A stretch of 48,675 nt of DNA from NCBI GenBank assembly GCA_016788565.1, contig JAEUSP010000078.1:1-48675 (forward strand), in the 5' to 3' direction. Both the position numbers and the translations under genes were made by a program. Origin of the DNA: Chlorobiota bacterium. GTDB lineage: Bacteria; Bacteroidota; Ignavibacteria; OLB7. Below, in pieces: positions 1 through 36,992 of this stretch. Under the pieces are notes generated by a model. The model saw only the letters and a program-made list of their open reading frames with translations, searched no databases and was not told the DNA's origin. Every line of letters begins with the position of its first letter. Position 1 is the first letter of the stretch.

Positions 1-35
1 TGTTGCCGCAACTCGTCGCTCAGTGGTAATTCCAT
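1..35 (-). CDS. 5' end of an unidentified minus-strand gene (partial)
   Basis: Read on the minus strand, an ATG at 35 opens a frame (MELPLSDELRQ) that runs off the left edge without a stop. Eleven residues are too few to recognise a family. No clear Shine-Dalgarno sequence precedes the ATG. Its orientation matches the next genes to the right. It could also be an internal stretch or no gene at all. Confidence 0.3.
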   Translation of the reverse strand, partial: MELPLSDELRQ

Positions 36-161
36 GACGCTAATCTATGGTGATTATCCCTATCTTCATACTACCTCTACCGTCTCAAATATTTTCTCCC
101 CTAACCTCTCCAGTTTCGCATTCCAATTTATTTGGAGTATAAGCACGGGTGTTTTATTCAG

Positions 162-14560: not shown

Positions 14561-14688
14561 CCAGAAACCCGCGAGATGGGCTTGCGCCGCTGCTTCGCGG
14601 TGCTTCGTCGAAGACTCCTCGCGATGACGGTGCGTGAGTTTGGGCGAACAATCTCTTGATTCTCGTGAGCCATTTTGTTCCAAGTATT
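14561..14688. repeat. Remnant of a miniature element related to the copy at 31194
   Basis: The stretch CTTCGTCGAAGACTCCTCGC, then ATGACGGTG and GTGAGTTTGGG, then ATCTCTTGATTCTCG, matches the right half of the element at 31194-31445 nearly base for base. The right terminal repeat is decayed (GTGAGCCATTTTGTTCCAAG). It lies exactly between the two ACCACAGAG repeats. The gap 14392-15062 otherwise holds only these repeats and the katG leader. Confidence 0.65.
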
Positions 14689-17703: not shown

Positions 17704-17860
17704 TATACTCGGCGCACATTGGTTTGCGAAACTCTACTCAGCTAGGTTCGCTATGGATGCGCTTCGCAGGCCTTCGGCTCCCGCTTTCGCCCCGACTGGT
17801 CGGGGTGAACTGGGAATGACAGTGATTGAGTTTTTCGCAAACCACTCTGTTTGGAGTATA
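17704..17860 (+). mobile_element. Miniature inverted-repeat element, copy A (157 bp with TA flanks)
   Basis: The ends are TATACTCGGCGCACATTGG... and the complement of TATACTCCAAACAGAGTGG..., both followed by TTTGCGAAA. These inverted repeats of about 28 bp match those of copies B (24419), C (28325) and D (31194). The centre carries CCCGCTTTCGC...GGGAATGACAGTG with an extra CCCCGACTGGTCGGGG hairpin compared with B and C. There is no open reading frame. Outermost TA dinucleotides are consistent with a TA target site. It lies 225 bp upstream of the res gene. Confidence 0.75.
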
Positions 17861-18084
17861 GTCATTAGTGAGTTGCTGGCTTTGGCTTCATTTCACTCTT
17901 TCCATCTCACTCTTCACTCTTCGCTTTGCCCCTCTCTCCCCCACACGACCAATGTGAGGCAACCAACACCTTCACACGTTTGGGTGAGGGCAGGGGCACA
18001 GCCCACACACTATCAACAAACCATATCTCTGGCGCTGACTGATCCACACGGATCGGCGCGCCGCACTTGATTGAAAGGACACCC

Positions 18085-21000
18085 GTGAGCGACCAATTCT
18101 TCGAAAAACCGATTCTAAACTCGCCGTACGATTACCCGGCGCGCCACTGGGAATTAGACCCAACCGGACAGCCCACCCAGAACATCATCGCCAGCCGCCG
18201 GCGTGCCGATTTCATCACGCCCATTCCCAAGCCGAAGAAGCGAACGGGGAACAATCAAGGCGCGCTGGTTTTCGACGAAGTGGAGAACCTTGCCACCGCC
18301 GAGCAGCAGTACGAACACACCGCCGTCATCCAAGAACTACGCCAGAAGGTGGACCGCTGGCGGGAGATTTCCAACCCGAACGACTGGAATGTCACCCCCG
18401 AAACTGCACGACTGCTTCAGCATTGGCGGCATCACCCTTTTGCTGCCATTCGCCCCTTCTTCTGCCAGATCGAGGCGGTCGAGACGGCGATTTGGCTGAC
18501 GGAGGTTGCGCCGCAGTTAGGCAAATCGGGCGAGCGATTCACCCAGCGGCTGCAGGATGCCAACGCCGAGGCCAACCCCGGACTGAACCGCCTTGCGCTG
18601 AAGTTGGCCACCGGCGCCGGAAAGACCACCGTGATGGCGATGCTGATTGCCTGGCAAACCATCAACGCCGTGCGCCACCCCGCCAGCAAGCGATTCACTC
18701 GCGGTTTCCTGATCGTCACCCCGGGCCTTACCATCCGCGACCGACTTCGCGTGTTGCAGCCGAACGATCCCGACAGCTACTTCACCACCCGCGAACTGAT
18801 CCCCGCCGATATGCTGGAGGAGGTCCGCCGCGCCAAAATCGTTATCACCAACTACCACGCTTTTAAGCTGCGCGAACGTGTTGAGCTTTCGGCCGGTGGG
18901 CGCGCGCTGCTTCAGGGACGCACCGGCGAACCACTGAACACCAAGGAGACCGAAGGCCAGATGCTTCAGCGCGTTTTGCCCGATATGATGGGGATGAAGA
19001 ACATCATGGTGCTGAACGACGAGGCCCACCACTGCTACCGCGAAAAACCGCCCGAAGATGATGACGCGGAATTGAAAGGGGACGAAAAAAAGGAGGCCGA
19101 ACAGAACAACGAAGCCGCACGGCTTTGGATTTCCGGGCTGGAAATCATCAGCCGTACTCTGGGGGTCAACCGGGTGATGGACCTTTCTGCCACGCCATTC
19201 TTTCTGCGCGGTTCCGGCTACGCCGAAGGGACCCTTTTCCCCTGGACCATGAGCGACTTCTCGCTGATGGATGCCATCGAGTGCGGCATCGTGAAGCTGC
19301 CACGCGTGCCGGTTGCCGAAAACATCCCCGGAAGCGAAATGCCGATGTTCCGCAACCTGTGGGAAAACATCCGCAAGGATATGCCCAAAAAAGGGCGCGG
19401 AACCGCCGGCGAACTTGATCCGCTGAAGCTGCCGACCCGTTTGCAAACCGCGCTGGAAGCACTGTACGGCCACTACAAACAGACCTTCCAGCTCTGGGAG
19501 GAACATGGCATGGCCGTCCCCCCCTGCTTCATCATCGTTTGCCAGAACACCGCCATTTCCAAGCTGGTCTATGACTTCATCTCCGGCTTCCACCAAGCCA
19601 ATGCCGACGGGAGCACCACCCTGCAAAACGGCCGTCTGGAACTGTTCCGCAACTTCGACGAAACCACCGGAAACCCACTGCCCCGGCCCAACACACTGCT
19701 GATTGACAGCGAACAATTGGAATCGGGGAACGCGCTGGATGCCAATTTCCGCGCAATGGCCAGCGACGAAATCGAACGATTCCGCCGCGACATCACCGAA
19801 CGCACCGGCAACCCGCGCGCCGCCGATACCATCACCGACCAGGACTTGCTCCGCGAGGTGATGAACACCGTTGGCAAAGCCGGACAGCTGGGCCAGGGTA
19901 TCCGCTGCGTTGTCTCCGTCTCGATGCTGACCGAAGGCTGGGACGCGAACAACGTCACCCACATCCTGGGCATCCGCGCGTTTGGCACCCAACTGCTGTG
20001 CGAGCAGGTGATTGGCCGCGCACTCCGCCGCCAGTCCTACGAACTGAACCAGGAAAACCTGTTCAATGTGGAGTACGCCGATGTCTTCGGCATCCCGTTC
20101 GATTTCACCGCACGGCCAACCATTTGCCCGCCACAGCCACCACCACACACCACCCTGGTGAAGGCACTCCGCCCCGAACGCGACCACCTGGAAATCCGGT
20201 TCCCACGGGTCCAGGGCTACCGCGTCGAACTTCCCAACGAACGCCTGTCGGCAACGTTCACCCCCGACTCCACCCTTGTGCTTACCCCCGATCTGGTTGG
20301 CCCTTCCATCACCCACAACCAGGGGATTATTGGCGAAGGGGTGGATATGAATCTGGAGCATCTGGACACCACCAGGCATTCCTCCATCCTGATGCACCTT
20401 GCCAGGCGATTGGCCACAACCCACTGGCGCGATTCCGGCGAACAGTTCTCCACCCACCTGTTCGTTCAGCTGAAATCCATTGCCAAGCAGTGGCTGGAGA
20501 ACTACCTGATCTGCAAGGGAAACACCAAGCCGGCCCAGCTGCTCTATCTGGAGTTGGCCGATATGGCCTGCAACAAAATCACCGCAGCTATCACCCGCAA
20601 GTTTGCCGACACCCGCCCCATGAAAGCGCTGCTGGACCCCTACAACCCCACCGGCTCAACCAACCACGTCCGGTTTGCAACTTCCCGCACCGACCTTTGG
20701 GACACCGCCGGCCCGCCCCCAAAATCCCACGTCAATTTTGTTGTGCTGGATAGCGATTGGGAAGCGGAGTTCTGCCGCATTGCCGAATCGCACCCACGGG
20801 TGCGCGCCTACGCCAAAAACCACAGCTTGGGCCTAGAGGTCCCCTACCGCTACGGCTCGCAAACCCGCCGCTACCTTCCCGATTTTATCTTGCTGGTGGA
20901 TGACGGCCACGGCGGCCTGCTCCATCTGATCGTCGAAATAAAAGGCTACCGCCGCCAGGACGCAATCGAAAAAGAAGAAACCATGAACACCTACTGGATT

Positions 21001-21216
21001 CCCGGCGTGAACAACCTTGCCAACTACGGACGCTGGGCCTTTGCTCAGTTCGGCGATCTCTTCCAGATGGAAGCCGACTTCGAAGCCAAGCTGGCCCAGA
21101 CCTTCGACTCCATGATTGCAACCGCAATCGCGCCCGCAACTGCACCCGCAACTGCACCTGCGCCCGCCGCCGCCACCACCTCAACCGAAAACAACAACTC
21201 TCTGGAGGTTGCCTAA
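18085..21216 (+). CDS. res: Type III restriction-modification system, restriction (Res) subunit
   Basis: The 1043-residue Res protein is an SF2 translocase plus nuclease. Helicase motifs: Walker A ATGAGKT (175-181), DEAH (312-315, in NDEAHHCY), SAT (368-370) and the arginine-finger motif QVIGRALRR (about 650-660). Near the C-terminus a PD-(D/E)xK nuclease site reads PDF (932)...E951-I-K953-G. Type III enzymes cleave DNA only in complex with Mod, after ATP-driven communication between two head-to-head unmethylated sites. GTG at 18085 follows AAAGGA with normal spacing, so it is preferred over the TTG at 18067. The last 30 residues are an Ala-Thr-Pro repeat. mod follows after 6 nt. The gene shows strong GCC/CGC codon preference. 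Confidence 0.95.
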   Translation: MSDQFFEKPILNSPYDYPARHWELDPTGQPTQNIIASRRRADFITPIPKPKKRTGNNQGALVFDEVENLATAEQQYEHTAVIQELRQKVDRWREISNPNDWNVTPETARLLQHWRHHPFAAIRPFFCQIEAVETAIWLTEVAPQLGKSGERFTQRLQDANAEANPGLNRLALKLATGAGKTTVMAMLIAWQTINAVRHPASKRFTRGFLIVTPGLTIRDRLRVLQPNDPDSYFTTRELIPADMLEEVRRAKIVITNYHAFKLRERVELSAGGRALLQGRTGEPLNTKETEGQMLQRVLPDMMGMKNIMVLNDEAHHCYREKPPEDDDAELKGDEKKEAEQNNEAARLWISGLEIISRTLGVNRVMDLSATPFFLRGSGYAEGTLFPWTMSDFSLMDAIECGIVKLPRVPVAENIPGSEMPMFRNLWENIRKDMPKKGRGTAGELDPLKLPTRLQTALEALYGHYKQTFQLWEEHGMAVPPCFIIVCQNTAISKLVYDFISGFHQANADGSTTLQNGRLELFRNFDETTGNPLPRPNTLLIDSEQLESGNALDANFRAMASDEIERFRRDITERTGNPRAADTITDQDLLREVMNTVGKAGQLGQGIRCVVSVSMLTEGWDANNVTHILGIRAFGTQLLCEQVIGRALRRQSYELNQENLFNVEYADVFGIPFDFTARPTICPPQPPPHTTLVKALRPERDHLEIRFPRVQGYRVELPNERLSATFTPDSTLVLTPDLVGPSITHNQGIIGEGVDMNLEHLDTTRHSSILMHLARRLATTHWRDSGEQFSTHLFVQLKSIAKQWLENYLICKGNTKPAQLLYLELADMACNKITAAITRKFADTRPMKALLDPYNPTGSTNHVRFATSRTDLWDTAGPPPKSHVNFVVLDSDWEAEFCRIAESHPRVRAYAKNHSLGLEVPYRYGSQTRRYLPDFILLVDDGHGGLLHLIVEIKGYRRQDAIEKEETMNTYWIPGVNNLANYGRWAFAQFGDLFQMEADFEAKLAQTFDSMIATAIAPATAPATAPAPAAATTSTENNNSLEVA

Positions 21217-21222
21217 CACGCC

Positions 21223-24200
21223 ATGGCCCGTACCAAAAAAACCGCTCCGCAAAAAACTTCTTCAAAGAAAACTGCTTCCCCAAAAACCGCTCCCCAAAAA
21301 ACGGTCCAGACCCTTACGCACACCGCCGACAAGCGGAAGAACATCCCCACCGCCGAACACGAGTCGGTGATGACACCCCAGGAAAAAGATGCCAAGCCAA
21401 TCCGCTACCAGCGCAACACCGACCTGGACCCACAGCTTGTGTGGCGCGGCAAGGACGAACAAGATTGGTCCGATCTGGTGGTGCACGCCCCGCCGCTCTA
21501 TATCCAAGAAAAAGTGAAGCCGAAGGTGCTGATTGATGACCTGCTGCGCCTTACCAAGCAATCCACAGCGCAGGCACCGGGGGCCCAGGCTGACCTGTTT
21601 GCCGACTTCAACGGCATTGCGCCGGGGGTGGATAAAACGGAGTTCTACAAGCACGAACAGAACTGGACCAACCGGATGATCCTGGGCGATTCCCTTCAGG
21701 TGATGGCAAGCCTGGCCGAACGCGAAGGGCTGCGCGGCAAGGTCCAGTGCATCTATCTGGACCCCCCCTACGGCATCAAATTCAACAGCAATTTCCAGTG
21801 GTCCACCACCAGCCGCGACGTGAAAGATGGCAACGCCAGCCACATCACCCGCGAACCCGAACAGGTGAAAGCCTTCCGCGACACCTGGCGCGACGGCATC
21901 CACAGCTACCTGACCTACCTCCGCGACCGCCTGACCGTTGCACGCGATTTACTGGCTGACTCCGGCTCCATCTTTGTGCAAATCGGCGACGAAAATGTCC
22001 ACCGCGTTAGGGCGGTGTTGGATGAGGTTTTTGGGGAGGAGAATTTTGTGTCGGTTATCGCATTTCAAAAAACTGGCGGGTTCTCAAGTAGCAGCTTGGA
22101 TAATGTTCTCGATTTCATTGTCTGCTATGCGAAGCGCAAAGAAAATCTGAAATTTCGGCAACTCTTCGGGCCAAAGGAGAGTTCAAAAAGTGGTGTCAAA
22201 AACTATTCAATCCTCGAATTAGAACACGGCGTAACTCGACCACTAACACGCGATGAATTAAGCGATCCGTCGCTCATTTCTGTTGGATTACGGCACTATG
22301 GAGTTCACGCAATTACCAGCTCAGGTTCGGCTAACGAACCTCAGCCATTCGAATTTAATGGCATCATTTGGGACCCTAAAAAGAACGAACATTGGAAGGC
22401 TCAGTACCCAGAAGGAATGAAGCGTCTTGCTACCGCTGGAAGAATCGAAGCGAGCCCAAAACGAATCGGTTATAAACGCTATTTCGATGACTTCGCTGCG
22501 GTCCCAATTTCCAATCTCTGGAACGATACACGCGGAGATATGGACATTATTTACGTCGTTCAGACAACCACTCGTATCATCGAGCGTTGCCTCCTAATGA
22601 CCACCGACCCCGGCGATTTAGTATTGGACCCGACGTGTGGGAGCGGGACCACGGCGCATGTGGCGGAGCAATGGGGCCGGCGTTGGATTACGATTGACAC
22701 CAGCCGAGTGGCGTTGGCGTTAGCGCGTGCGCGAATCATGGGGGCGCGCTACCCCTACTACCTTCTGGCCGACTCTATCGAGGGGCAGCTGAAGGAGGCG
22801 GAGATCACCCGGGGCGTACCAAGCAGCCAGCCCGCCTATCGGGACATCCGGCATGGGTTTGTGTATGAGCGGGTTCCGCACATCACCCTAAAATCCATTG
22901 CCAACAACGCGGAGATAGATGTGATTTGGGAGAAGTGGCAGCAGACGTTGGAGCCGTTGCGCCAGAAGCTGAACAGCGCGCTGAAACGGGAGTGGCAGGA
23001 GTGGGAAATCCCGCGCGAAGCGGAGCAAGGGTGGCCCCAGCCAGCCCAGAAACTGCACGCCGACTGGTGGAAAGCGCGGATTGGGCGGCAGCAGGAGATT
23101 GACAAATCAATTGCGGCCAAAGCGGAGTTCGAATACCTGTACGACAAGCCGTACGAGAACAAGAAGAGCGTGCGGGTTGCCGGCCCCTTCACCGTGGAAA
23201 GCCTTAGCCCCCACAGGATGTTGGGGGTGGACGAAAACGGCGAGATGTTAGACCCCTTCAAAATTGGGGATCACAGCCAGCCGGACTACGCGCCGCGGCC
23301 AAGTTTCGAGCAGATGATACTGGAGAACCTGCGGACCGCGGGGGTGCAGCAAGCCCACAAGGAGGACCGGATCAGCTTCACCACGCTTACGCCGTGGCCG
23401 GGGGACTTGGTGTGTGCCGAAGGGCGATACCAGGAAGGGGCCACCCAGCGGCGGGCCGCGATTTTTATTGGGCCGGAGTTCGGGACCGTGCAGCGTGCGG
23501 ACCTTGTTGCGGCCGCGCGCGAATCGGGCGACGGCGGTTTCGATCTGCTGATTGCCTGCGCCTTCAACTACGAAGCGCACGCGGCGGAGTTCACAAAGCT
23601 TGGGCGCATCCCCGTGCTGAAAGCGCGGATGAACGCCGACTTGCACATGGCCGCCGACCTAAAAAACACCGGCAAGGGGAACCTGTTTGTGATTTTTGGG
23701 GAGCCGGACGTGGAGGTGGCCAGTGGCCAGTGGTTGGTGAACAGAAATGGCAACCCGATTGCAAGTTTTGAGCAGGTGAAAGAGGTATCGGGATTTGGGA
23801 GTTTGGAGCAGATGAACCATGCAGGCAGGGGCGGGCTGGCGGCGGCAGTTGGGAAAACATCTGGCGGCAAAGATTCCGGCGGAGCGCGACGTGGGGAAGC
23901 GATTGCCGCGCTGCAGAAGCTGACCGAAGCCGACTTCCCGTTAGCGCTCACCAGCGACCACTGGGTTCAAGTCACCATCCACGGCGTGGACGTATTCGAC
24001 CCCAACACCGGGGAAGTCCGGAGCGATTCGGCATCGGGAATCGCCTGTTGGTTTTTGGACAGCGACTACAACGAGGAGAGTTTCTTTGTGCGCCATGCGT
24101 ATTTTCTTGGGCAGAACGACCCGTACAAATCATTGAAGACAACGCTGAAAGCGGAGATCAACGAGGAAGCCTGGGGGACACTGAACAGCGACACCTCGCG

Positions 24201-24288
24201 GCCGTTCATCAGGCCGGAATCGGGACGAATAGCCATAAAAGTAATCAACCACCTTGGGGATGAGGTGATGAAGGTGATGAAGGTATAA
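21223..24288 (+). CDS. mod: Type III restriction-modification system, adenine methyltransferase (Mod) subunit
   Basis: The 1021-residue protein has methyltransferase motif IV DPPY at 180-183 ahead of motif I DPTCGSG at 469-475, the beta-class order typical of N6-adenine Mod subunits. Mod recognises the asymmetric site, methylates it and forms the Mod2Res complex. The region between the motifs (about 261-466) is the target-recognition part and is a low-GC patch. Residues about 500-1021 are an unusually long C-terminal part not needed for methylation. The first 30 residues are Lys-Thr-Ala-Pro rich and encoded with several A-tracts (A7 at 21235). A GGAGG (21204-21208) sits about 15 nt before the start, inside the end of res. 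Confidence 0.95.
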   Translation: MARTKKTAPQKTSSKKTASPKTAPQKTVQTLTHTADKRKNIPTAEHESVMTPQEKDAKPIRYQRNTDLDPQLVWRGKDEQDWSDLVVHAPPLYIQEKVKPKVLIDDLLRLTKQSTAQAPGAQADLFADFNGIAPGVDKTEFYKHEQNWTNRMILGDSLQVMASLAEREGLRGKVQCIYLDPPYGIKFNSNFQWSTTSRDVKDGNASHITREPEQVKAFRDTWRDGIHSYLTYLRDRLTVARDLLADSGSIFVQIGDENVHRVRAVLDEVFGEENFVSVIAFQKTGGFSSSSLDNVLDFIVCYAKRKENLKFRQLFGPKESSKSGVKNYSILELEHGVTRPLTRDELSDPSLISVGLRHYGVHAITSSGSANEPQPFEFNGIIWDPKKNEHWKAQYPEGMKRLATAGRIEASPKRIGYKRYFDDFAAVPISNLWNDTRGDMDIIYVVQTTTRIIERCLLMTTDPGDLVLDPTCGSGTTAHVAEQWGRRWITIDTSRVALALARARIMGARYPYYLLADSIEGQLKEAEITRGVPSSQPAYRDIRHGFVYERVPHITLKSIANNAEIDVIWEKWQQTLEPLRQKLNSALKREWQEWEIPREAEQGWPQPAQKLHADWWKARIGRQQEIDKSIAAKAEFEYLYDKPYENKKSVRVAGPFTVESLSPHRMLGVDENGEMLDPFKIGDHSQPDYAPRPSFEQMILENLRTAGVQQAHKEDRISFTTLTPWPGDLVCAEGRYQEGATQRRAAIFIGPEFGTVQRADLVAAARESGDGGFDLLIACAFNYEAHAAEFTKLGRIPVLKARMNADLHMAADLKNTGKGNLFVIFGEPDVEVASGQWLVNRNGNPIASFEQVKEVSGFGSLEQMNHAGRGGLAAAVGKTSGGKDSGGARRGEAIAALQKLTEADFPLALTSDHWVQVTIHGVDVFDPNTGEVRSDSASGIACWFLDSDYNEESFFVRHAYFLGQNDPYKSLKTTLKAEINEEAWGTLNSDTSRPFIRPESGRIAIKVINHLGDEVMKVMKV
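22005..22620 (+). other. Low-GC target-recognition segment within mod
   Basis: Hand counts of single 60-nt lines give 25/60 G+C at 22141-22200 and 22201-22260 and 27/60 at 22321-22380, against 39/60 at 21841-21900 and 40/60 at 22981-23040. Codon choice also shifts (AAA, GAA, AAT, ATT frequent). The borders lie just before GGCGGTGTTGGATGAGG and just before motif I. The segment matches the specificity-determining domain, which is known to be exchanged between mod alleles. Confidence 0.75.
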
Positions 24289-24295
24289 GCACCCA

Positions 24296-24328
24296 TTCCC
24301 CGGTAGGCATCCCGACTGAGTCGGGATC
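24296..24328 (+). repeat. CGGTAGG...CCCGACTGAGTCGGG hairpin downstream of mod
   Basis: A short stem (TCCCGACT / AGTCGGGA) begins just beyond the mod stop. It shares CCCCGGTAGG and CCGACTGAGTCGG with the hairpin after katG (17305). The 989-bp region 24289-25277 contains this, a miniature element and three further inverted repeats, with no gene I would support. Confidence 0.6.
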
Positions 24329-24418
24329 AATGACAGGTCTTTAGCCTGCGATACTCCCGCTGAAAGAGCCGTGCTATTACGTTCTCCCTCTTGGCTCCCT
24401 CTCCCCCCGCAGGGCTGT

Positions 24419-24534
24419 TATACTCCAAACAGAGTGGTTTGCGAAAAACTTCATCACTGTCATTCCCGCGAAAGCGGGAATCCATACCACACCTGGCTGA
24501 GTAGAATTTCGCAAACCAATTTGCGCCGAGTATA
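24419..24534 (-). mobile_element. Miniature inverted-repeat element, copy B (116 bp with TA flanks)
   Basis: It is the same element as copy A in opposite orientation: TATACTCCAAACAGAGTGG...TTTGCGAAA at the left, and the complement of TATACTCGGCGCAAATTGG at the right. The centre is CATTCCCGCGAAAGCGGGAA. Left flank GCAGGGCTGT-TA and right flank TA-AGAG can be compared with the uninterrupted GCAGGGCTGTTAAGAG about 370 bp downstream (24906-24921). The comparison defines the element as 24421-24532 (112 bp) with a TA duplication. Confidence 0.8.
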
Positions 24535-24637
24535 AGAGATCGAAGAAGGAGTGGCTTGAAGGACACAACTCATGGAACAGCCGTTGGCAGCACACCAGCA
24601 CACCATCACAGGCTTGGGTTGCGGGGTATTGCTCTTC

Positions 24638-24853
24638 GCCCCAACGGGGCAGCCTATTCCAGCCCAGGGCAGCGCCCTGGGAACCATGACCGCAATGGTT
24701 GGAAAGCCCTGAAAGGGCGACCGAAGGGATCATCCTCTGTGGGTGGATGTTGGCGGTGGTTGGCGTTGGGTCGCCCCTTCAGGGCTTGGATTCAATGGCT
24801 GGATGGGACCCAGGGCGTTGCCCTGGGCTGGGGTGGGTCGCCCCGTTGGGGCT
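24638..24853. repeat. Head-to-head pair of an ~83-bp GC-rich repeat
   Basis: The left arm (24638-24720) contains, in order, GCCCCAACGGGGC, AGCCCAGGGCAGCGCCCTGGG and AGCCCTGAAAGGGCGACC. The right arm (24769-24852) reads as its reverse complement, with GGGTCGCCCCTTCAGGGCTT, CCCAGGGCGTTGCCCTGGGCT and GCCCCGTTGGGGC. Each arm therefore holds three smaller palindromes. Similar blocks are widespread in intergenic DNA of several phyla and often produce spurious small ORF calls. Confidence 0.75.
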
Positions 24854-24982
24854 GTGGGTGTTGGCTGGTGTTGAGTTCTCCCCCTGTGAGAAGCAGGGCA
24901 GGGAGGCAGGGCTGTTAAGAGTTTTGGAACGCATGGAACTGCTTCGACGAATGTCAGGCGAAGCCTGACAGAGAAAGAAAAA

Positions 24983-25109
24983 ATTCCCCTCCCCCGGAGG
25001 GGTGGCAGGCGAAGCCTGACGGGGTGGTGGGGCTACGCAGGAGGATACTCCAACATCACTGCCAAAAAACCACCCCGCCCTGGCGGGCACCCCTCCACTG
25101 GAGGGGAAT
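24983..25109. repeat. Large imperfect inverted repeat, TTCCCCTCC...GGAGGGGAA
   Basis: The left arm ATTCCCCTCC-n-GGAGGGGTGG...GGGGTGG and the right arm CCACCCCGCC...GGGCACCCCTCC-n-GGAGGGGAAT are each other's approximate reverse complement over about 40 bp. Each arm has its own small hairpin. The palindrome TGTCAGGCGAAGCCTGACA (24952-24970), repeated in part at 25004-25020, is just outside and inside the left arm. Confidence 0.7.
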
Positions 25110-25277
25110 CGAGGCGATGATGCGATCAAGAATGCAACGCTCACCTTCGCCAACAACATCCTCCGGCTTCATCCCCTTGTGAGAACGTAACAGCCCTGCC
25201 CCGGGAGAGGGTTGGGGCAAGGGGCAGCAAGGCAGCCGCAGAAAGAGGCCTCAACTCATTCTACTCAAGTACATACC

Positions 25278-27365
25278 ATGCACTTCCGAATTGCCGACAC
25301 CTTCACCGACAGCCTTGCCCGGCTGACTGCTGATGAGCAAAAGGCCGTGAAGACAACGGCCTTCGACTTGCAGATGAACCCTGCCAGCCCGGGCATGAGC
25401 TTCCACAGGCTGGACCGCGCCCGCGACAAAAATTTCTGGAGCGTGCGCGCCGGCAGCGACCTGCGGCTGATCGTCCACAGAACCGACGACAGCATCCTGC
25501 TATGCTACGTGAACCACCACGACAAAGCCTACGACTGGGCCGAGCGGCGCAAGCTGGAAGCGCACCCCAAAACCGGTGCCGCCCAGCTTGTTGAAATACG
25601 GGAGCGGGTGGAGCAGATTGTTGTGCCGCACTACGTGGATGCACCTGCGCCGCGCCGCGCCAAGCAGCCGTTGTTTGCGGGGATTGCCGAGGAATCACTG
25701 CTGGAATACGGCGTGCCAGCCGAGTGGATTGCCGAAGTCCAGGGCGCGACCGAGGATAGCATCCTGGACCTTGTTGGCCACCTGCCACAAGAAGCCGCCG
25801 AGGCGTTGCTGGAACTGGCAACCGGCGGGAAGCCGCGCACGCCAACGGCTGGGCCAGCTTCGGTTAATCCATTCGACCATCCCGATGCGCAACGCCGCTT
25901 CCGGTTGATGACCGATGCGGAGGAACTGAAGGCCGCGCTGGAATCCCCCTGGGACAAATGGACAATTTTTCTGCACCCTTCACAGCGCGAGTGGGTGCAG
26001 CGCGACTTCGCTGGGCCGTCGCGTGTTTCCGGATCCGCCGGCACCGGCAAAACCATTGTGGCCCTTCACCGCGCGGTTGCTCTTGCGCAAAAAAACCCGG
26101 AATCGCGCGTGCTTCTCACAACCTTCACCGACGCGCTGGCCAAGCAGCTGCACACAAGGCTTAGGCGATTAATCAGTGCCGAGCCACGGCTGGGGGAGCG
26201 GATAGATGTGGCATCGTTGGATTCGGTGGGGGCCAGGCTGTATGCAATCCATGTCGGCAAGGGGGGCAGCAAAGTCCATCTCTCTTCCCCCGGGTCAATC
26301 GGCCATGCGATTGATGCCGCCATTGCCGCAGGGGATGCAGGGAAATTCAGCCGTGGATTCCTTCAGCAGGAGTGGGCCGATGTGGTGGATGCGTGGCAGA
26401 TCGGGACGTGGGAAGAGTACCGAACCGTTCCGAGGCTTGGGCGGAAGACACGGTTATCGGAAGGGCAGCGGGGACTGCTGTGGGCCATTTTTGCGGACAC
26501 AAACCAGCGGCTTGCCGATTCCGGAATACTCACCCGCTCGCAGATGTTCGCCGCGCTTGCAGCCGCCATGAAAGACCTGGAGCATCCCCCCTACGATTTC
26601 ATTATTGTGGATGAGTCGCAGGATATTTCAATCAGCCAACTGAAGTTCCTGGCCGCCATAAGCCCCGCGCAGCCGAACGCATTATTTTTTGCCGGAGACC
26701 TGGGCCAACGGATATTCCAAGTCCCCTTTTCCTGGCGGTCGCTTGGCGTGGATATTCGGGGCCGTTCGCGAACGCTGCGTGTGAACTACCGGACATCGCA
26801 TCAAATCCGTTCCCAGGCCGACCGCCTACTGTCGCAACAGCTTACCGACGTGGATGGCAATCCCGAAGACCGGCGCGGCACTGTCTCGGTGTTCAACGGG
26901 CCGCCGCCGCTAATCCGCACCTTCGGCGACCAGAAGGAGGAAATAACCGCAGTTGCCGTGTGGTTATCCAAGCAATTATCGGCGGGGGTTGCCCCACACG
27001 AAATCGGGATTATCGTGCGCACCACCGATCAGATTCCGCGCGCGCAGGCGGCCGCGCAGGAAGCAACGTTGAAGAGCACCATCATTGATGATACGGGCGA
27101 GCAAGTTTCCGGCATCGCCTGCATCCTGAGCATGCACATGGCGAAGGGATTGGAGTTCCGTGCGGTTGCGGTCATGGCCTGCGACGAGGAGGTCATTCCC
27201 CTGCAGAGCCGCCTTGAGGCCATCACCGACGAGGCAGACTTGGAAGAAATCTACAACACCGAGCGGCACTTGCTGTATGTGGCCTGCACCCGCGCCCGCG
27301 ATCACCTGATGCTCACAGCGGTGTCACCGAAATCAGAGTTCTTGGATGATCTGGCATCGGATTGA
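25278..27365 (+). CDS. RelE/ParE-like toxin domain fused to a UvrD/Rep-type helicase
   Basis: The 695-residue protein begins with a RelE/ParE-like fold (about 1-91): FRIADTFTDSLARL, the RLDRARDKNFWSVRAGSDLRLIV core and a terminal VNHHDKAYDWAERR. A spacer (92-225) leads to an SF1 helicase: Q motif around Q236, Walker A GSAGTGKT (252-259), DESQD (445-449), motif III AGDLGQR (472-478), NYRT (503-506), MAKGLEF (621-627) and CTRAR (670-674). UvrD-type enzymes translocate 3' to 5' on DNA. RelE toxins cleave mRNA on the ribosome, and ParE toxins poison gyrase. Whether the domain is a working toxin or a folded adaptor cannot be told. No antitoxin gene is adjacent. The next gene overlaps by 1 nt. The start at 25278 fits the domain; the frame is open 22 codons further up. 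Confidence 0.88.
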   Translation: MHFRIADTFTDSLARLTADEQKAVKTTAFDLQMNPASPGMSFHRLDRARDKNFWSVRAGSDLRLIVHRTDDSILLCYVNHHDKAYDWAERRKLEAHPKTGAAQLVEIRERVEQIVVPHYVDAPAPRRAKQPLFAGIAEESLLEYGVPAEWIAEVQGATEDSILDLVGHLPQEAAEALLELATGGKPRTPTAGPASVNPFDHPDAQRRFRLMTDAEELKAALESPWDKWTIFLHPSQREWVQRDFAGPSRVSGSAGTGKTIVALHRAVALAQKNPESRVLLTTFTDALAKQLHTRLRRLISAEPRLGERIDVASLDSVGARLYAIHVGKGGSKVHLSSPGSIGHAIDAAIAAGDAGKFSRGFLQQEWADVVDAWQIGTWEEYRTVPRLGRKTRLSEGQRGLLWAIFADTNQRLADSGILTRSQMFAALAAAMKDLEHPPYDFIIVDESQDISISQLKFLAAISPAQPNALFFAGDLGQRIFQVPFSWRSLGVDIRGRSRTLRVNYRTSHQIRSQADRLLSQQLTDVDGNPEDRRGTVSVFNGPPPLIRTFGDQKEEITAVAVWLSKQLSAGVAPHEIGIIVRTTDQIPRAQAAAQEATLKSTIIDDTGEQVSGIACILSMHMAKGLEFRAVAVMACDEEVIPLQSRLEAITDEADLEEIYNTERHLLYVACTRARDHLMLTAVSPKSEFLDDLASD

Positions 27366-28237
27366 TGATGCTGAAAATTTTAGCAACCCCCTCCAAAACA
27401 TCACCAGAAAAAATGGCATTGCTCAACAAAACTCTGCTGAAGCCGTTCGTGTGCCCGAATCTGGTTCGGGTTGGCGCGCCGAACGATGGTGGGTATGTGG
27501 TTCCGGGGGATCACCTTGCCCGTGGCGCGTATCTGGTTTCGTTGGGCCTGTTCGATAATTGGACGTTCGACGCAGCCTGCCTAGTGATGAACCCCTCCAT
27601 CCGAATTATTGCGGTGGATCACTCGGTGGGGCCGTGGTGGTTTGTTCGCAAAATTATCCGCTGCCTCTGGAAAATCCCCGCCTACCTGCTGCTTCTGGAT
27701 CGGGCCCGGCTTCGCAAATACACATCTAAGCTGCGCAACTACATCAACTATTTTTCCTTTTTTACCGCGCCACATCTTCATCTAAAAAAGCGTGTTTCCA
27801 ACAGCGGTGGCGCGTTGGATATTCGCCTTGCGGAAATTATCGAACGCCACTGCCCGCCAACCGGGGCGGCAACGCACGATGTTGTTCTGAAAATGGATAT
27901 TGAAGGGGGTGAGTACGACACCGTGGCCGATATTAACCGCTACCAAAGCCGCATCAGTTTCATCACGGGTGAGTTCCATGATCTGGATTCGCGGACGGCG
28001 GAGTTCAATCGGATGATGGAGGAATTATCGCGGTATTTTCGCGTGGTTCACATTCACGGGAATAATTGCGGCGCGTACGATCACGCCAATGATTTTCCAT
28101 CCATCGTTGAAATTACTTTCGTCAACGCCGCCCTGCTTGCCCGCGATGCTGGTTACTCCAATTTCCACTATCCCCGCGTCGGCCTGGACGCTCCGAACGA
28201 GCCAACAATTCCCGAGTATGAGATTCGGTTTGAGTGA
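27365..28237 (+). CDS. FkbM-type SAM-dependent methyltransferase
   Basis: The 290-residue protein shows the FkbM-family motif VLKMDIEGGEYD around 174-185 and an early VRVGAPNDGGYVV (35-47). It also has the SAM-site acidic residue context IIAVDHS (81-87) and a C-terminal FHDLDSR...VEITFVN. The family methylates hydroxyls on sugars and natural products, and members are common in surface-polysaccharide clusters, though none is seen here. The ATG shares its A with the helicase stop (TGATG), so translation is probably coupled and the two proteins may act together. A strong terminator follows. ATG at 27368 is an alternative start. Confidence 0.85.
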   Translation: MMLKILATPSKTSPEKMALLNKTLLKPFVCPNLVRVGAPNDGGYVVPGDHLARGAYLVSLGLFDNWTFDAACLVMNPSIRIIAVDHSVGPWWFVRKIIRCLWKIPAYLLLLDRARLRKYTSKLRNYINYFSFFTAPHLHLKKRVSNSGGALDIRLAEIIERHCPPTGAATHDVVLKMDIEGGEYDTVADINRYQSRISFITGEFHDLDSRTAEFNRMMEELSRYFRVVHIHGNNCGAYDHANDFPSIVEITFVNAALLARDAGYSNFHYPRVGLDAPNEPTIPEYEIRFE

Positions 28238-28324: not shown

Positions 28325-28440
28325 TATACTCGGATGAAATTGGTTTGCGAAACTCTACTCAGCTAGGTGTGGTATGGATTCCCGCTTTCGCGGGAATGAC
28401 AACGACTAGATTTTTCGCAAACCATTTTGTTCGGAGTATA
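28325..28440 (+). mobile_element. Miniature inverted-repeat element, copy C (116 bp with TA flanks)
   Basis: It has the same length and orientation type as copy B, but reversed (and thus parallel to copy A). The left end is TATACTCGGATGAAATTGG and the right end is the complement of TATACTCCGAACAAAATGG, both leading to TTTGCGAAA. The centre is TTCCCGCTTTCGCGGGAATG. It lies between the terminator at 28317 and the end of ubiD. Confidence 0.78.
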
Positions 28441-31193: not shown

Positions 31194-31445
31194 TATACTC
31201 CAATGAAAGCGGTTTGCGAACTTCAGAAGGGGATAGCTGAACATGTTATCCCTTCGTCATCGCCCCGACGGGTCGGGGTCTTCGACAAGGAGCGATAGCG
31301 ACGTGGCGACCTCGCGTCCAGTACGGTGTCCAATGCTCTCTCAGAAATCCGCGAGATCGCTTCGTCGAAGACTCCTCGCGATGACGGTGGGTGAGTTTGG
31401 GAAAACGATCTCTTGATTCTCGCAAACCACTTTGTTCCGATTATA
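31194..31445. mobile_element. Miniature inverted-repeat element, copy D (252 bp with TA flanks)
   Basis: The left end is TATACTCCAATGAAAGCGG and the right end the complement of TATAATCGGAACAAAGTGG, each continuing into TTTGCGA. The interior differs from copies A-C and includes CCCCGACGGGTCGGGG and CTTCGTCGAAGACTCCTCGC, shared with the remnant at 14561. Copy D abuts the end of pfkA on one side and the tail of hicB on the other. Confidence 0.7.
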
Positions 31446-33765: not shown

Positions 33766-35196
33766 ATGCGCTACTCCATTCTTTCTACTCTTCTTGCTAT
33801 CCTCTGCACCGCCTGCGTCCAAGGGCAAAGCTACGAGGCAGTCAAAGCATTCCCAGCACTCTATTTCCAGAATCCTGTTGAAATTGTTCATGCTGGTGAT
33901 GGGTCAAATCGGTTGTTTGTCCTTGAGCAATCTGGAATTATTCGGGTGTTTCCGAACAACCCCAACGTGGCAAAAGCTGACACGTTTATGAATATCAAAA
34001 GCAAAGTTCTTTCCGGCGGTGAGCTGGGTTTGCTTGGCATTGCGTTTCATCCTGATTACAAAAACAACGGCTATTTCTACTTGGATTATACCGCCGACAA
34101 CCCACGCAGAACAATTATTGCCCGATACCAAGTTGACCCCAACAACCCGAATAAAGGGGATGCAGCCAGCGAGCAAGTATTGCTGGAAATAAACCAACCC
34201 TACACGAACCACAACGGTGGCAAAATTGCTTTTGGGCCTGATGGCTACCTTTACATTTCCATGGGGGATGGCGGAAGCGGTGGTGATCCAGAAAACCGAG
34301 CGCAAAACCGCAGCTCACTCCTTGGGAAAATGCTCCGTATTGATGTGAACAACACAGCCAACGGAAAAAATTACGCCCTCCCTGCCGATAACCCATTTGT
34401 TGGCAACCAAAACGGATATTCAGAAGAAATCTATGCGTGGGGTTTACGCAACGCCTGGAAATTTAGCTTCGACCCAGAAACAGGTTGGCTGTGGGCTGCG
34501 GATGTTGGACAAGGGAAGTGGGAAGAAATTAGCTTGATAGAAAAAGGGAGAAATTATGGCTGGAGAATTATGGAAGGAAAGCACTGCTACAACCCCTCAA
34601 CAAACTGCGATACCACCGGATTAGTGCAACCAATTTGGGAATACTCACATAGCTTGGGGGTATCCGTTACTGGAGGATATGTTTACCGTGGCACAGCGTT
34701 GCCGGGATTGAACGGGAAATATATTTACGGTGATTTTGGTAGCGGGCGAATATGGGCATTGGAATACGATGGCGAATCCTCCCCAATCAATACACAAATT
34801 TTGCAGGATCAGCCTTCCGTTGCCTCCTTTGGCGTTGATCAGAATAATGAGATCATGTTCAGCAGCTTCAATGGCAGCATCTACCGCATCCGTCAACTTG
34901 GCAGCAGCGTTGGTAGTTCTTCCGATAATGATGCCTTCTTGCTTGGTGCGCCCAAGCCCAACCCTGCAAGCGGGCGGGTTGTGATTCCCTTCACTTTGGG
35001 AAATACAACCTCCATTTCCATCGCGCTGTTCGATGCGGCCGGGCGCAAGGTGCAATCAATTTTTGACGGAACCCGCGAAGCTGGCCACCACGAAATTGCC
35101 TTCGAGGCCAACTCCCTTCCCGTCGGAACGTATTTCTGCCGCATGAGCAGCGGGGCAATGTCGGCAACACAAGATTTGATACTGTTCCATCGGTAA
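33766..35196 (+). CDS. Secreted PQQ-dependent sugar dehydrogenase-like beta-propeller with T9SS sorting domain
   Basis: The 476-residue protein has a signal peptide (about 1-21) and a six-bladed propeller of the soluble glucose/sorbosone dehydrogenase type (about 25-380): GLLGIAFHPDY, GGKIAFGPDGYLYISMGDGG, RAQNRSSLLGKMLRID and AWGLRNAWKFSFDP. The catalytic-base histidine of soluble glucose dehydrogenase (His144 in Acinetobacter) aligns with H149 in TNHNGGK. Residues about 395-476 are a T9SS type A sorting domain (PKPNPASGRVVIPFTL...VGTYFCRM). It is therefore expected to be exported and released or anchored at the surface. A paralogue follows. Confidence 0.92.
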   Translation: MRYSILSTLLAILCTACVQGQSYEAVKAFPALYFQNPVEIVHAGDGSNRLFVLEQSGIIRVFPNNPNVAKADTFMNIKSKVLSGGELGLLGIAFHPDYKNNGYFYLDYTADNPRRTIIARYQVDPNNPNKGDAASEQVLLEINQPYTNHNGGKIAFGPDGYLYISMGDGGSGGDPENRAQNRSSLLGKMLRIDVNNTANGKNYALPADNPFVGNQNGYSEEIYAWGLRNAWKFSFDPETGWLWAADVGQGKWEEISLIEKGRNYGWRIMEGKHCYNPSTNCDTTGLVQPIWEYSHSLGVSVTGGYVYRGTALPGLNGKYIYGDFGSGRIWALEYDGESSPINTQILQDQPSVASFGVDQNNEIMFSSFNGSIYRIRQLGSSVGSSSDNDAFLLGAPKPNPASGRVVIPFTLGNTTSISIALFDAAGRKVQSIFDGTREAGHHEIAFEANSLPVGTYFCRMSSGAMSATQDLILFHR

Positions 35197-35224
35197 CATT
35201 TTTCAGCGAATTATTCTCTTATTA

Positions 35225-35266
35225 TGGTGCGGTGTGGTGAGTTCCACACCGCACCACATTTTTTTT
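35225..35266 (+). terminator. Strong terminator immediately ahead of the second propeller gene
   Basis: A perfect 13-bp stem (TGGTGCGGTGTGG / CCACACCGCACCA) with a 6-nt loop is followed by eight T residues (35259-35266). The T-run ends 8 nt before the ATG of the next gene, leaving no room for a promoter between them. Confidence 0.9.
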
Positions 35267-35274
35267 GTTGCCGC

Positions 35275-36729
35275 ATGAAAAACCAACATCTCTGGCTTGC
35301 ACTACTGCTTCCCCTCCTTCTGCTTATCACAGTCGCCAAACTGAACGCGCAATATCAATACGAAGTAGCCCCAGCATTTTCCAACACGCTATTGTTCCAA
35401 ACTCCGGTGGAAATCACAAGCGCACGCGATGGCAGCAATCGGTTGTTTGTGGTTGAGCAAGGGGGAATTATTCGGGTTGTTCCAAACGACCCGCAGGCCG
35501 CAATTGCCGACACGTTTTTAAATATCAAACGGAAGGTGAGTGTTGGAAGCGAGACGGGATTGCTTGGGCTTGCATTTCACCCGAATTACCAGCAGAATGG
35601 TTTCCTGTATGTGAACTACACCGCCCCCAATCCACTACGAACCATCATCGCCCGCTATCATGTTGATCCGAACAACCCAAAACAGTGCGATACCGCAAGC
35701 GAAGTCATCCTTTTAGAAATTCCTCAGCCACAGAAAAACAACAAAGCGGGTAAAATTGCTTTTGGCCCCGATGGCCGCCTCTTTATTTCCGTTGGCGATG
35801 GCGGCGGAACTGGCGATCCTGAAAATCGCGCCCAAAATTTAACGTTGCTTCTCGGCAAAATTCTTCGGATTGATGTCAACCATGTTTCCAACGGAAAGAA
35901 TTACTCAATCCCTACCGACAACCCATTCTACGGGAACTCACAGGGCTATGCCGAAGAAATTTGGGCCTGGGGTTTTCGGAATCCGTGGCGATTTAGCTTT
36001 GACCCGCTAACGCACGATTTATGGGTAGGTGATGTTGGGCTTTATACTTGGGAGGAAATCAACATTGTAGAAAAAGGGAAGAATTATGGCTGGAATATCA
36101 TGGAAGGGAGGCAGTGCTTTAACACGACGATGCCGTGTGACACCTCCAACCTTACGAAGCCAATATGGGCGTACCCTCGCGACGTTGGGCGCACAGTTAT
36201 TGGCGGATATGTTTACCGTGGCACGGCAATGCCTGAGTTGTTCGGAAAGTATATTTATGGGGATTTTACCAGTGGCGGTTATTGGGCGTTAGACTACTAC
36301 GGCCAGCCTTCCCCCACCAGCAAGGAATTATTTCAGCAGCGCACACTTTCCCTTTCTTCGTTTGGGGTAGATGACAACAATGAATTGCTGCTTACTTCCT
36401 ACAATGGCCGTGTTTATCGCCTCCATCCATCGCCGAATAGCGATGCCGCCCATGTTTCCGGCGATGCTGAATTTCTGCTTCAACAACCCAAGCCGAACCC
36501 TGCCGCAAGCGGGCAAGTTATTATCCCTTTTTCTCTGGGAAGCCCAGCACCGATTTCCATCACGCTGTTTGATGACATCGGGCGCAAGGTGCAATCAATT
36601 TTTGACGGAACCCGCGAAGCCGGTAGCCATGAAATTGCTTTCGACACCAGCACGCTTCCCGCCGGAATTTATTTCTGCCGATTGAGCAGTGGCGCATGGG
36701 CCGACACCAAGCCTGTGGTGGTGCAGTGA
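35275..36729 (+). CDS. Secreted sugar-dehydrogenase-like beta-propeller, paralogue lacking the catalytic His, with T9SS sorting domain
   Basis: The 484-residue protein is closely similar to its neighbour over its whole length, including signal peptide (1-26), propeller and T9SS sorting domain (PKPNPAASGQVIIPFSL at the start). The position of H149 in the first copy is N156 here (K154-N-N156-K-A-G-K), so the catalytic base is missing. The PENRAQNLT and AWGFRNPWRFSFDP segments are kept, so metal and cofactor binding might survive. It may be a binding protein or inactive. The start MKNQHLW at 35275 is preferred, because upstream codons lie inside the terminator. No Shine-Dalgarno sequence is visible. 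Confidence 0.9.
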   Translation: MKNQHLWLALLLPLLLLITVAKLNAQYQYEVAPAFSNTLLFQTPVEITSARDGSNRLFVVEQGGIIRVVPNDPQAAIADTFLNIKRKVSVGSETGLLGLAFHPNYQQNGFLYVNYTAPNPLRTIIARYHVDPNNPKQCDTASEVILLEIPQPQKNNKAGKIAFGPDGRLFISVGDGGGTGDPENRAQNLTLLLGKILRIDVNHVSNGKNYSIPTDNPFYGNSQGYAEEIWAWGFRNPWRFSFDPLTHDLWVGDVGLYTWEEINIVEKGKNYGWNIMEGRQCFNTTMPCDTSNLTKPIWAYPRDVGRTVIGGYVYRGTAMPELFGKYIYGDFTSGGYWALDYYGQPSPTSKELFQQRTLSLSSFGVDDNNELLLTSYNGRVYRLHPSPNSDAAHVSGDAEFLLQQPKPNPAASGQVIIPFSLGSPAPISITLFDDIGRKVQSIFDGTREAGSHEIAFDTSTLPAGIYFCRLSSGAWADTKPVVVQ

Positions 36730-36924: not shown

Positions 36925-36992
36925 AAATAGACCGAACAGCAGAGGGGCGAGAAAGATATTCTCGCCCCTCTGCTGTTCGGTCTATTTTTTTT
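36925..36992 (+). terminator. Very long perfect hairpin with T-run, probably bidirectional terminator
   Basis: Arms of 29 bp (AAATAGACCGAACAGCAGAG... at 36925-36953 and its exact complement at 36959-36987) enclose a 5-nt AGATA loop. The T-run continues to 36992. On the minus strand the hairpin lies just beyond the stop of the outer-membrane gene. It serves convergent genes ending at 36729 (plus) and 36998 (minus). Confidence 0.85.

Follow-up and report, generated by a model that had tools for sequence, protein, structure and literature searches.

A TA-duplicating MITE family of about 180 copies, very probably moved by an IS630 element lying at contig edges of the same genome

The RUP element of Streptococcus pneumoniae is about 107 bp long, its ends are similar to those of IS630-Spn1, and 110 copies were found in one strain (PMC3049150). 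For the Nezha MITE of cyanobacteria, the work cited in PMC3049150 proposed mobilisation by ISNpu3-like elements. We analysed a stretch of 48,675 nucleotides (the window), which is contig C10 of a genome (G000) assembled into 137 contigs with 4.58 Mb in total, and a MITE family in it was compared with these two systems. It resembled RUP in its size, its coding-free hairpin body, the similarity of its ends to an IS630 of the same genome, its target duplication and its more than 100 copies per genome. However, the host and the sequence were different, RUP is AT-rich whereas the MITE has a GC-rich, REP-like palindromic core, and the IS partner of the MITE was hidden at contig edges. The likeness to Nezha is one of kind and not of aligned sequence: in both cases, in different hosts, mobilisation in trans by an IS was proposed from the similarity of ends, as far as the citing account describes it. 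ISNpu3 is itself a member of IS630. The family is a known kind of system, and a clean but ordinary example of it. Very probably, it is an IS630-driven family of the RUP/Nezha kind, in which the MITE is moved in trans by an IS630 of the same genome.

The following members were located in the window:

17704 to 17860, no strand assigned: MITE copy A, 157 bp, with B-type ends and an altered palindromic core
24419 to 24534, no strand assigned: MITE copy B, 116 bp, a length that counts the duplicated target TA at either end (24419-24420 and 24533-24534)
28325 to 28440, no strand assigned: MITE copy C, 116 bp, in the orientation opposite to copy B
31194 to 31445, no strand assigned: MITE copy D, 252 bp, with a different, longer core within the family ends
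14602 to 14688, forward strand: decayed fragment from the right part of a D-type copy, 88% identical to 31359-31444

Copies A to D had been described in the original prediction as gene-less elements with common inverted ends, and the ends and the exact position of copy B were reproduced in the sequence. They had in common inverted ends of about 28 bp, which read TATACTC-n9-TGGTTTGCGAAA and its reverse complement. In copy B, these ends were at 24419-24446 and 24507-24534, and the core was the palindrome ATTCCCGCGAAAGCGGGAAT. Copies B and C were 88% complementary, as their orientations were opposite. The middles of copies A and D differed from those of B and C and consisted of other palindromic cores, and copy D kept 17 of the 19 fixed positions at each end. 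Within one copy, the 28-bp terminal inverted repeats were 78-86% complementary.

The genome-wide search for the ends, which had been suggested as a check, showed that further copies were abundant. With up to 3 mismatches, 363 ends were found in the whole genome against 1 control match, which excluded chance and corresponded to about 180 copies. At least 40 full-length 116-bp copies were 94-100% identical to copy B. This high identity suggested recent amplification. Among 49 dissected copies, the length was 116 bp in 42 and between 115 and 299 bp in the others, and no inspected element bounded by the ends was long enough for a transposase gene. The MITE family is real and large. All features of a MITE were found: short and non-coding elements, terminal inverted repeats, target duplication with empty sites, and high copy number. 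About 180 near-identical copies also provide a useful marker for recent mobile-element activity.

The dinucleotides outside the ends were then informative for the target. TA flanked both ends in 48 of the 49 dissected copies. The one exception was copy L009 on contig C75, which was flanked by GA at both ends and reads ATGA-TACTC...GAGTA-GACA. Mutation of both ends to one identical dinucleotide is unlikely, and insertion at GA explains this copy, which meant that the outer dinucleotide is the duplicated target. Read in this way, the MITE proper is TACTC...GAGTA, and the flanking dinucleotide comes from the target. The alternative that a TATA end is intrinsic to the element, with no duplication, was ruled out by the GA/GA copy and by empty sites holding one TA.

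To find empty sites, the two flanks of every copy were closed up around no dinucleotide, a single one or a pair, and the products were aligned to all DNA sets of the analysis. With one TA, the joined flanks of copy B gave a 128-bp gap-free alignment to C14:7112-7239 (90.6% identity, E 2.7e-46). The score was 178 bits with one TA, compared to 166 with none and 169 with two. The same query matched a second empty site of 108 bp at C8:28958-29065. When the joined query was searched genome-wide, C14 matched unbroken from 1 to 128, and the occupied site in the window matched as two halves, 1-48 and 47-128, whose overlap was exactly the TA. In the case of copy A, the flanks with one TA matched L024 over 77 bp gap-free at 84% identity. 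This copy sits within a 7-bp tandem repeat (AGTCATT), and removing the element and one TA restored the period. One dinucleotide copy was also favoured at L003, L009, L012, L018, L024, L026, L027, L040 and L047. In the messy tandem repeats of L020, L049, L034 and part of L025, zero or two TAs fitted equally well or better.

A shorter empty site lies in the window itself:

24906 to 24921, forward strand: short paralogous empty site GCAGGGCTGTTAAGAG, 16 bp, unsplit

An unsplit version of the site of copy B had been predicted at this position, and GCAGGGCTGTTAAGAG was present there. Taken alone, this 16-bp match is real but weak evidence for transposition. It had been offered as the case for transposition, and in that role it was too thin by itself; it held up as a short paralogue of a host repeat family that has the longer empty sites on C14 and C8. 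A family of dispersed repeats distinct from the MITE, CTCAGCATGAGCGGAGGGCTG / CTCATACTTCGACG, was observed in intergenic DNA at window positions 1290, 3645, 17415, 17660 and 36803. Several MITE copies were inserted beside or within this repeat, which is why paralogous empty sites exist, and the empty sites found are best read as paralogous. For copies A, C and D, orthologous sites were looked for in G014, the one congener found, where intergenic DNA was too diverged to judge presence or absence. A 49-bp gap-free match of L047 to the congener was considered as an orthologous site and left uncounted because it falls in the common host repeat. With the GA/GA exception and the 128-bp empty sites, the TA duplication is proven internally, and an uncultured lineage gains a well-documented IS630/MITE pair.

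These data also bear on whether the element could be a REP/REPIN-type palindrome moved by a RAYT (Y1) transposase, or an immobile structural RNA or DNA repeat. The core is a REP-type palindrome, and copies B and C were predicted to fold into near-complete hairpins around ATTCCCGCGAAAGCGGGAAT with z from -5.6 to -7.0 (-7.0 for copy B). The copies were also mostly intergenic: 13 of 48 lay in ORFs of 150 codons or more, compared to 284 of 384 random TAs of the same loci. However, the 28-bp terminal inverted repeats, the 2-bp target duplication and the clean empty sites argue against such a repeat. REPIN/RAYT was rejected since it expects neither target duplication nor long terminal inverted repeats, and the element has both. 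Furthermore, copies A and D have differing cores between the same ends, which indicated that the ends define the mobile unit. An origin as a REPIN or as an immobile repeat is extremely improbable. The placement of the copies suggested that genic insertions were avoided or removed, and in the IS630-driven reading the copies would persist chiefly between genes. An effect of the MITE on transcripts is plausible.

The original prediction stated that no transposase was in the window. A Pfam scan of 18 of the main ORFs in the window found no complete transposase, and no DDE_3 (IS630) domain was found in the assemblies of G000 or of the congener G014, a result that initially pointed to a lost driver. 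In a lenient transposase search, the matches sat at contig edges. The starts of nearly all contigs were read, together with a sample of contig ends, and one such edge was the start of the window:

1 to 141, reverse strand: left end of a multicopy IS630, with the end repeat at 114-141, a leader, and transposase codons 1-11 (MELPLSDELRQ, from 35 down to 1)

The statement on the window therefore stood for a complete transposase, but positions 1-141 hold an IS630 left end with 11 codons. The identical 141 bp open three contigs, C10 (the window), C47 and C63, beyond which the flanks differ. This left block runs from TATACTCCAAATAAATTGGAATGCGAAA inward to ATGGAATTACCACTGAGCGACGAGTTGCGG and encodes MELPLSDELRQ, which on inspection resembles the N-termini of other IS630 transposases. 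A right-end block was common to the starts of C35, C36, C78 and C105; it encodes the IS630 C-terminus YTTKEKFREAILNFFKNIGNYRTELESLLTLNFHIP and terminates in TATACTCAAACCAGATTGGATTGCAAGG. The start of C30 lies within the same C-terminus, of which 33 amino acids were 48% identical to the DDE_3 transposase of a complete IS630 in another genome (JAKAVV, below). The assembly contained 11 codons from the beginning of the transposase and 36 residues from its end, and lacked the interior of the IS. We infer that the left and right blocks are the two ends of one multicopy IS630, placed on separate contigs. Cut at contig edges, with its copies breaking the assembly about 140 bases inside, the IS630 made searches for such elements look empty. 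Perhaps the interior was too short to pass a length cut-off for contigs; among the contigs whose starts were fetched, the shortest had 1026 bases. A MITE driver that lies at contig edges can thus seem absent from a short-read assembly. In the congener G014, the N-terminal half of a transposase with a matching end was found at C79, and right ends were found at the starts of C10 and C20.

Two further observations were made on IS-related DNA of G000. At L210:2890-3129 (on C59), an intact-looking MITE was nested inside an IS630-derived remnant; the outer end of the remnant shared 94.5% identity with the right end of the IS, and its other end was like that of copy D. In addition, C5, C7, C33 and C48 had a multicopy element in common at positions 1-140. 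It resembles the beginning of an IS3-type orfA, as expected of another insertion sequence whose copies collapsed at contig edges.

The ends of the MITE were compared with those of the IS. The left ends of the two were identical at 23 of 28 positions, and the remaining pairs at 19-21 of 28; 20 shuffled windows gave at most 19 of 28. The interior of the MITE had no match to the IS. A complete IS630 of 961 bp was found in the bacterium isolate YP4.bin17 (JAKAVV; JAKAVV010000007, L129:5055-6015), with DDE_3 at E 3.9e-32. Its ends were TATACTC-n9-TGGTTTGCGAAA, which was selected by pattern, and TATACTA-n9-TAGTTTGCGGAA, which was not; both were the best-scoring sites of their stretch, and TA flanked the element. 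It was like the MITE in its ends and TA flanks. However, it is autonomous, 961 bp long, carries DDE_3 and belongs to a distant host. TATAC-type ends also adjoined related IS630 transposases of G428 and G103. The search for a full-length IS630 with matching ends, which had been proposed earlier, therefore succeeded in JAKAVV, whereas the own genome gave contig-edge ends only and the element of the congener was split over contigs. The IS630 transposases of G003, G024 and G034, which are family members, were rejected as drivers because their ends did not match.

A different transposase with closer ends, now lost, might have spread the MITEs, with the present IS630 being a non-mobilising cousin. 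At least 5 of 28 positions separate the MITE ends from the IS ends, and the MITE interiors lack an IS match. With 22-23 of 28 positions, the left end of the JAKAVV element came about equally near, so that similarity by itself does not point to this IS in particular. The high similarity of all 40 MITE copies would also allow a burst that predates the present IS. However, MITE and IS agree in the conserved TATACTC tip, in the inner TTG..TGC block and in the spacing, which are likely recognition features, and the IS ends were identical between copies over 141 bp, which indicated that the IS was active recently. We consider a lost transposase unlikely, yet it deserves more weight than the other rival explanations.

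Another TA-duplicating family, for example an IS5-group element targeting TA, could also be considered as the mover, since the genome has 3 DDE_Tnp_1 (IS4/IS5-type) genes above cut-off. In the five DDE_Tnp_1 loci fetched, however, no matching ends (TATACTC-n9-TGGTTTGCG) flanked the gene on both sides. In L218, both ends lay past the gene and near each other (1701 and 1790), and L220 had only one. In contrast, three lineages have elements with matching ends whose transposases are of the IS630 type. It is very improbable that such a family moves the MITE.

The reading of an IS630-driven family agrees with the 2-bp TA duplication and with ends that match an IS630 of the same genome. The prediction of a TA-duplicating transposition of the IS630/mariner type was borne out by the flanks of the dissected copies (TA/TA in all but the one GA/GA copy), by the gap-free one-TA empty sites and by an IS630 with matching ends in the genome. 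In this mechanism, the IS630 transposase would bind the 28-bp ends, through the TACTC tip and the inner TGGTTTGCGAAA. It would then excise the element and insert it at TA, so that the TA is duplicated. This enzymology is taken from the IS630/Tc1-mariner family, whereas the outcome and the target were seen in the copies themselves. The contig-edge IS630 would supply the transposase, with a complete coding sequence, and the movement would be recent or ongoing.

The same ends enclosed the ATTCCCGCGAAAGCGGGAAT palindrome in copies B and C, a rearranged one in copy A and another palindromic repeat in copy D. One IS630 end-recognition system might serve as a common carrier by which extragenic palindromes unrelated to each other are spread, a doubtful but possible extension. 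If this is true, capture by IS630 ends would be a route for REP-like repeats across genomes.

In other genomes, 42 MITE ends with up to 2 mismatches were found in the congener G014, and the remaining family and class members had few or no ends beyond chance. A 126-bp MITE of the congener (L223:454-579; G014:C5:31353-31478) had the ends TATACTCGCGTGCTTTCAGTTTGCGAAA, which were nearer to the IS630 ends of the congener than to the MITE of G000. This suggests that MITE subfamilies may follow their own IS. The 19 fixed bases occurred in many Bacteroidota-labelled MAGs of a public collection, often paired 92-176 bp apart, and the same end motif bounded different small elements in many Bacteroidota-labelled genomes. 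Among 395 genomes sampled from the phylum, the exact end occurred in only one other (G322). These exact ends turned out to belong to another small gene-less element. The literature searched contained no account of this end sequence.

The MITE copies lie near a restriction-modification island. A type III pair, with a ResIII/endonuclease gene at 18067-21216 and an N6_N4 methylase gene at 21223-24288, was followed by a UvrD helicase gene and an FkbM-like gene (18067-28237 in all). Copies A and C flank this island, and copy B lies inside it. In G014, about 9.2 kb of the island was missing, and a Res remnant (to window position 18570) was joined to the FkbM gene (from 27741). This junction, G014:C119:30161/30162, reads as a deletion scar. 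Elsewhere in the window, an inverted repeat with perfectly matching 29-bp arms and a loop of 5 bases was found at 36925-36987, between convergent ORFs (36729 on the forward strand and 36998 on the reverse strand). Tandem duplicated genes occupied 33766-36729 (33766-35196 and 35224-36729) and were about 70-79% identical. The Por_Secre_tail sorting domain is a feature of Bacteroidota. Pfam found it in two proteins of the window, and the gene at 33766-35196 encodes a glucose/sorbosone dehydrogenase-like protein with such a Por_Secre sorting tail.
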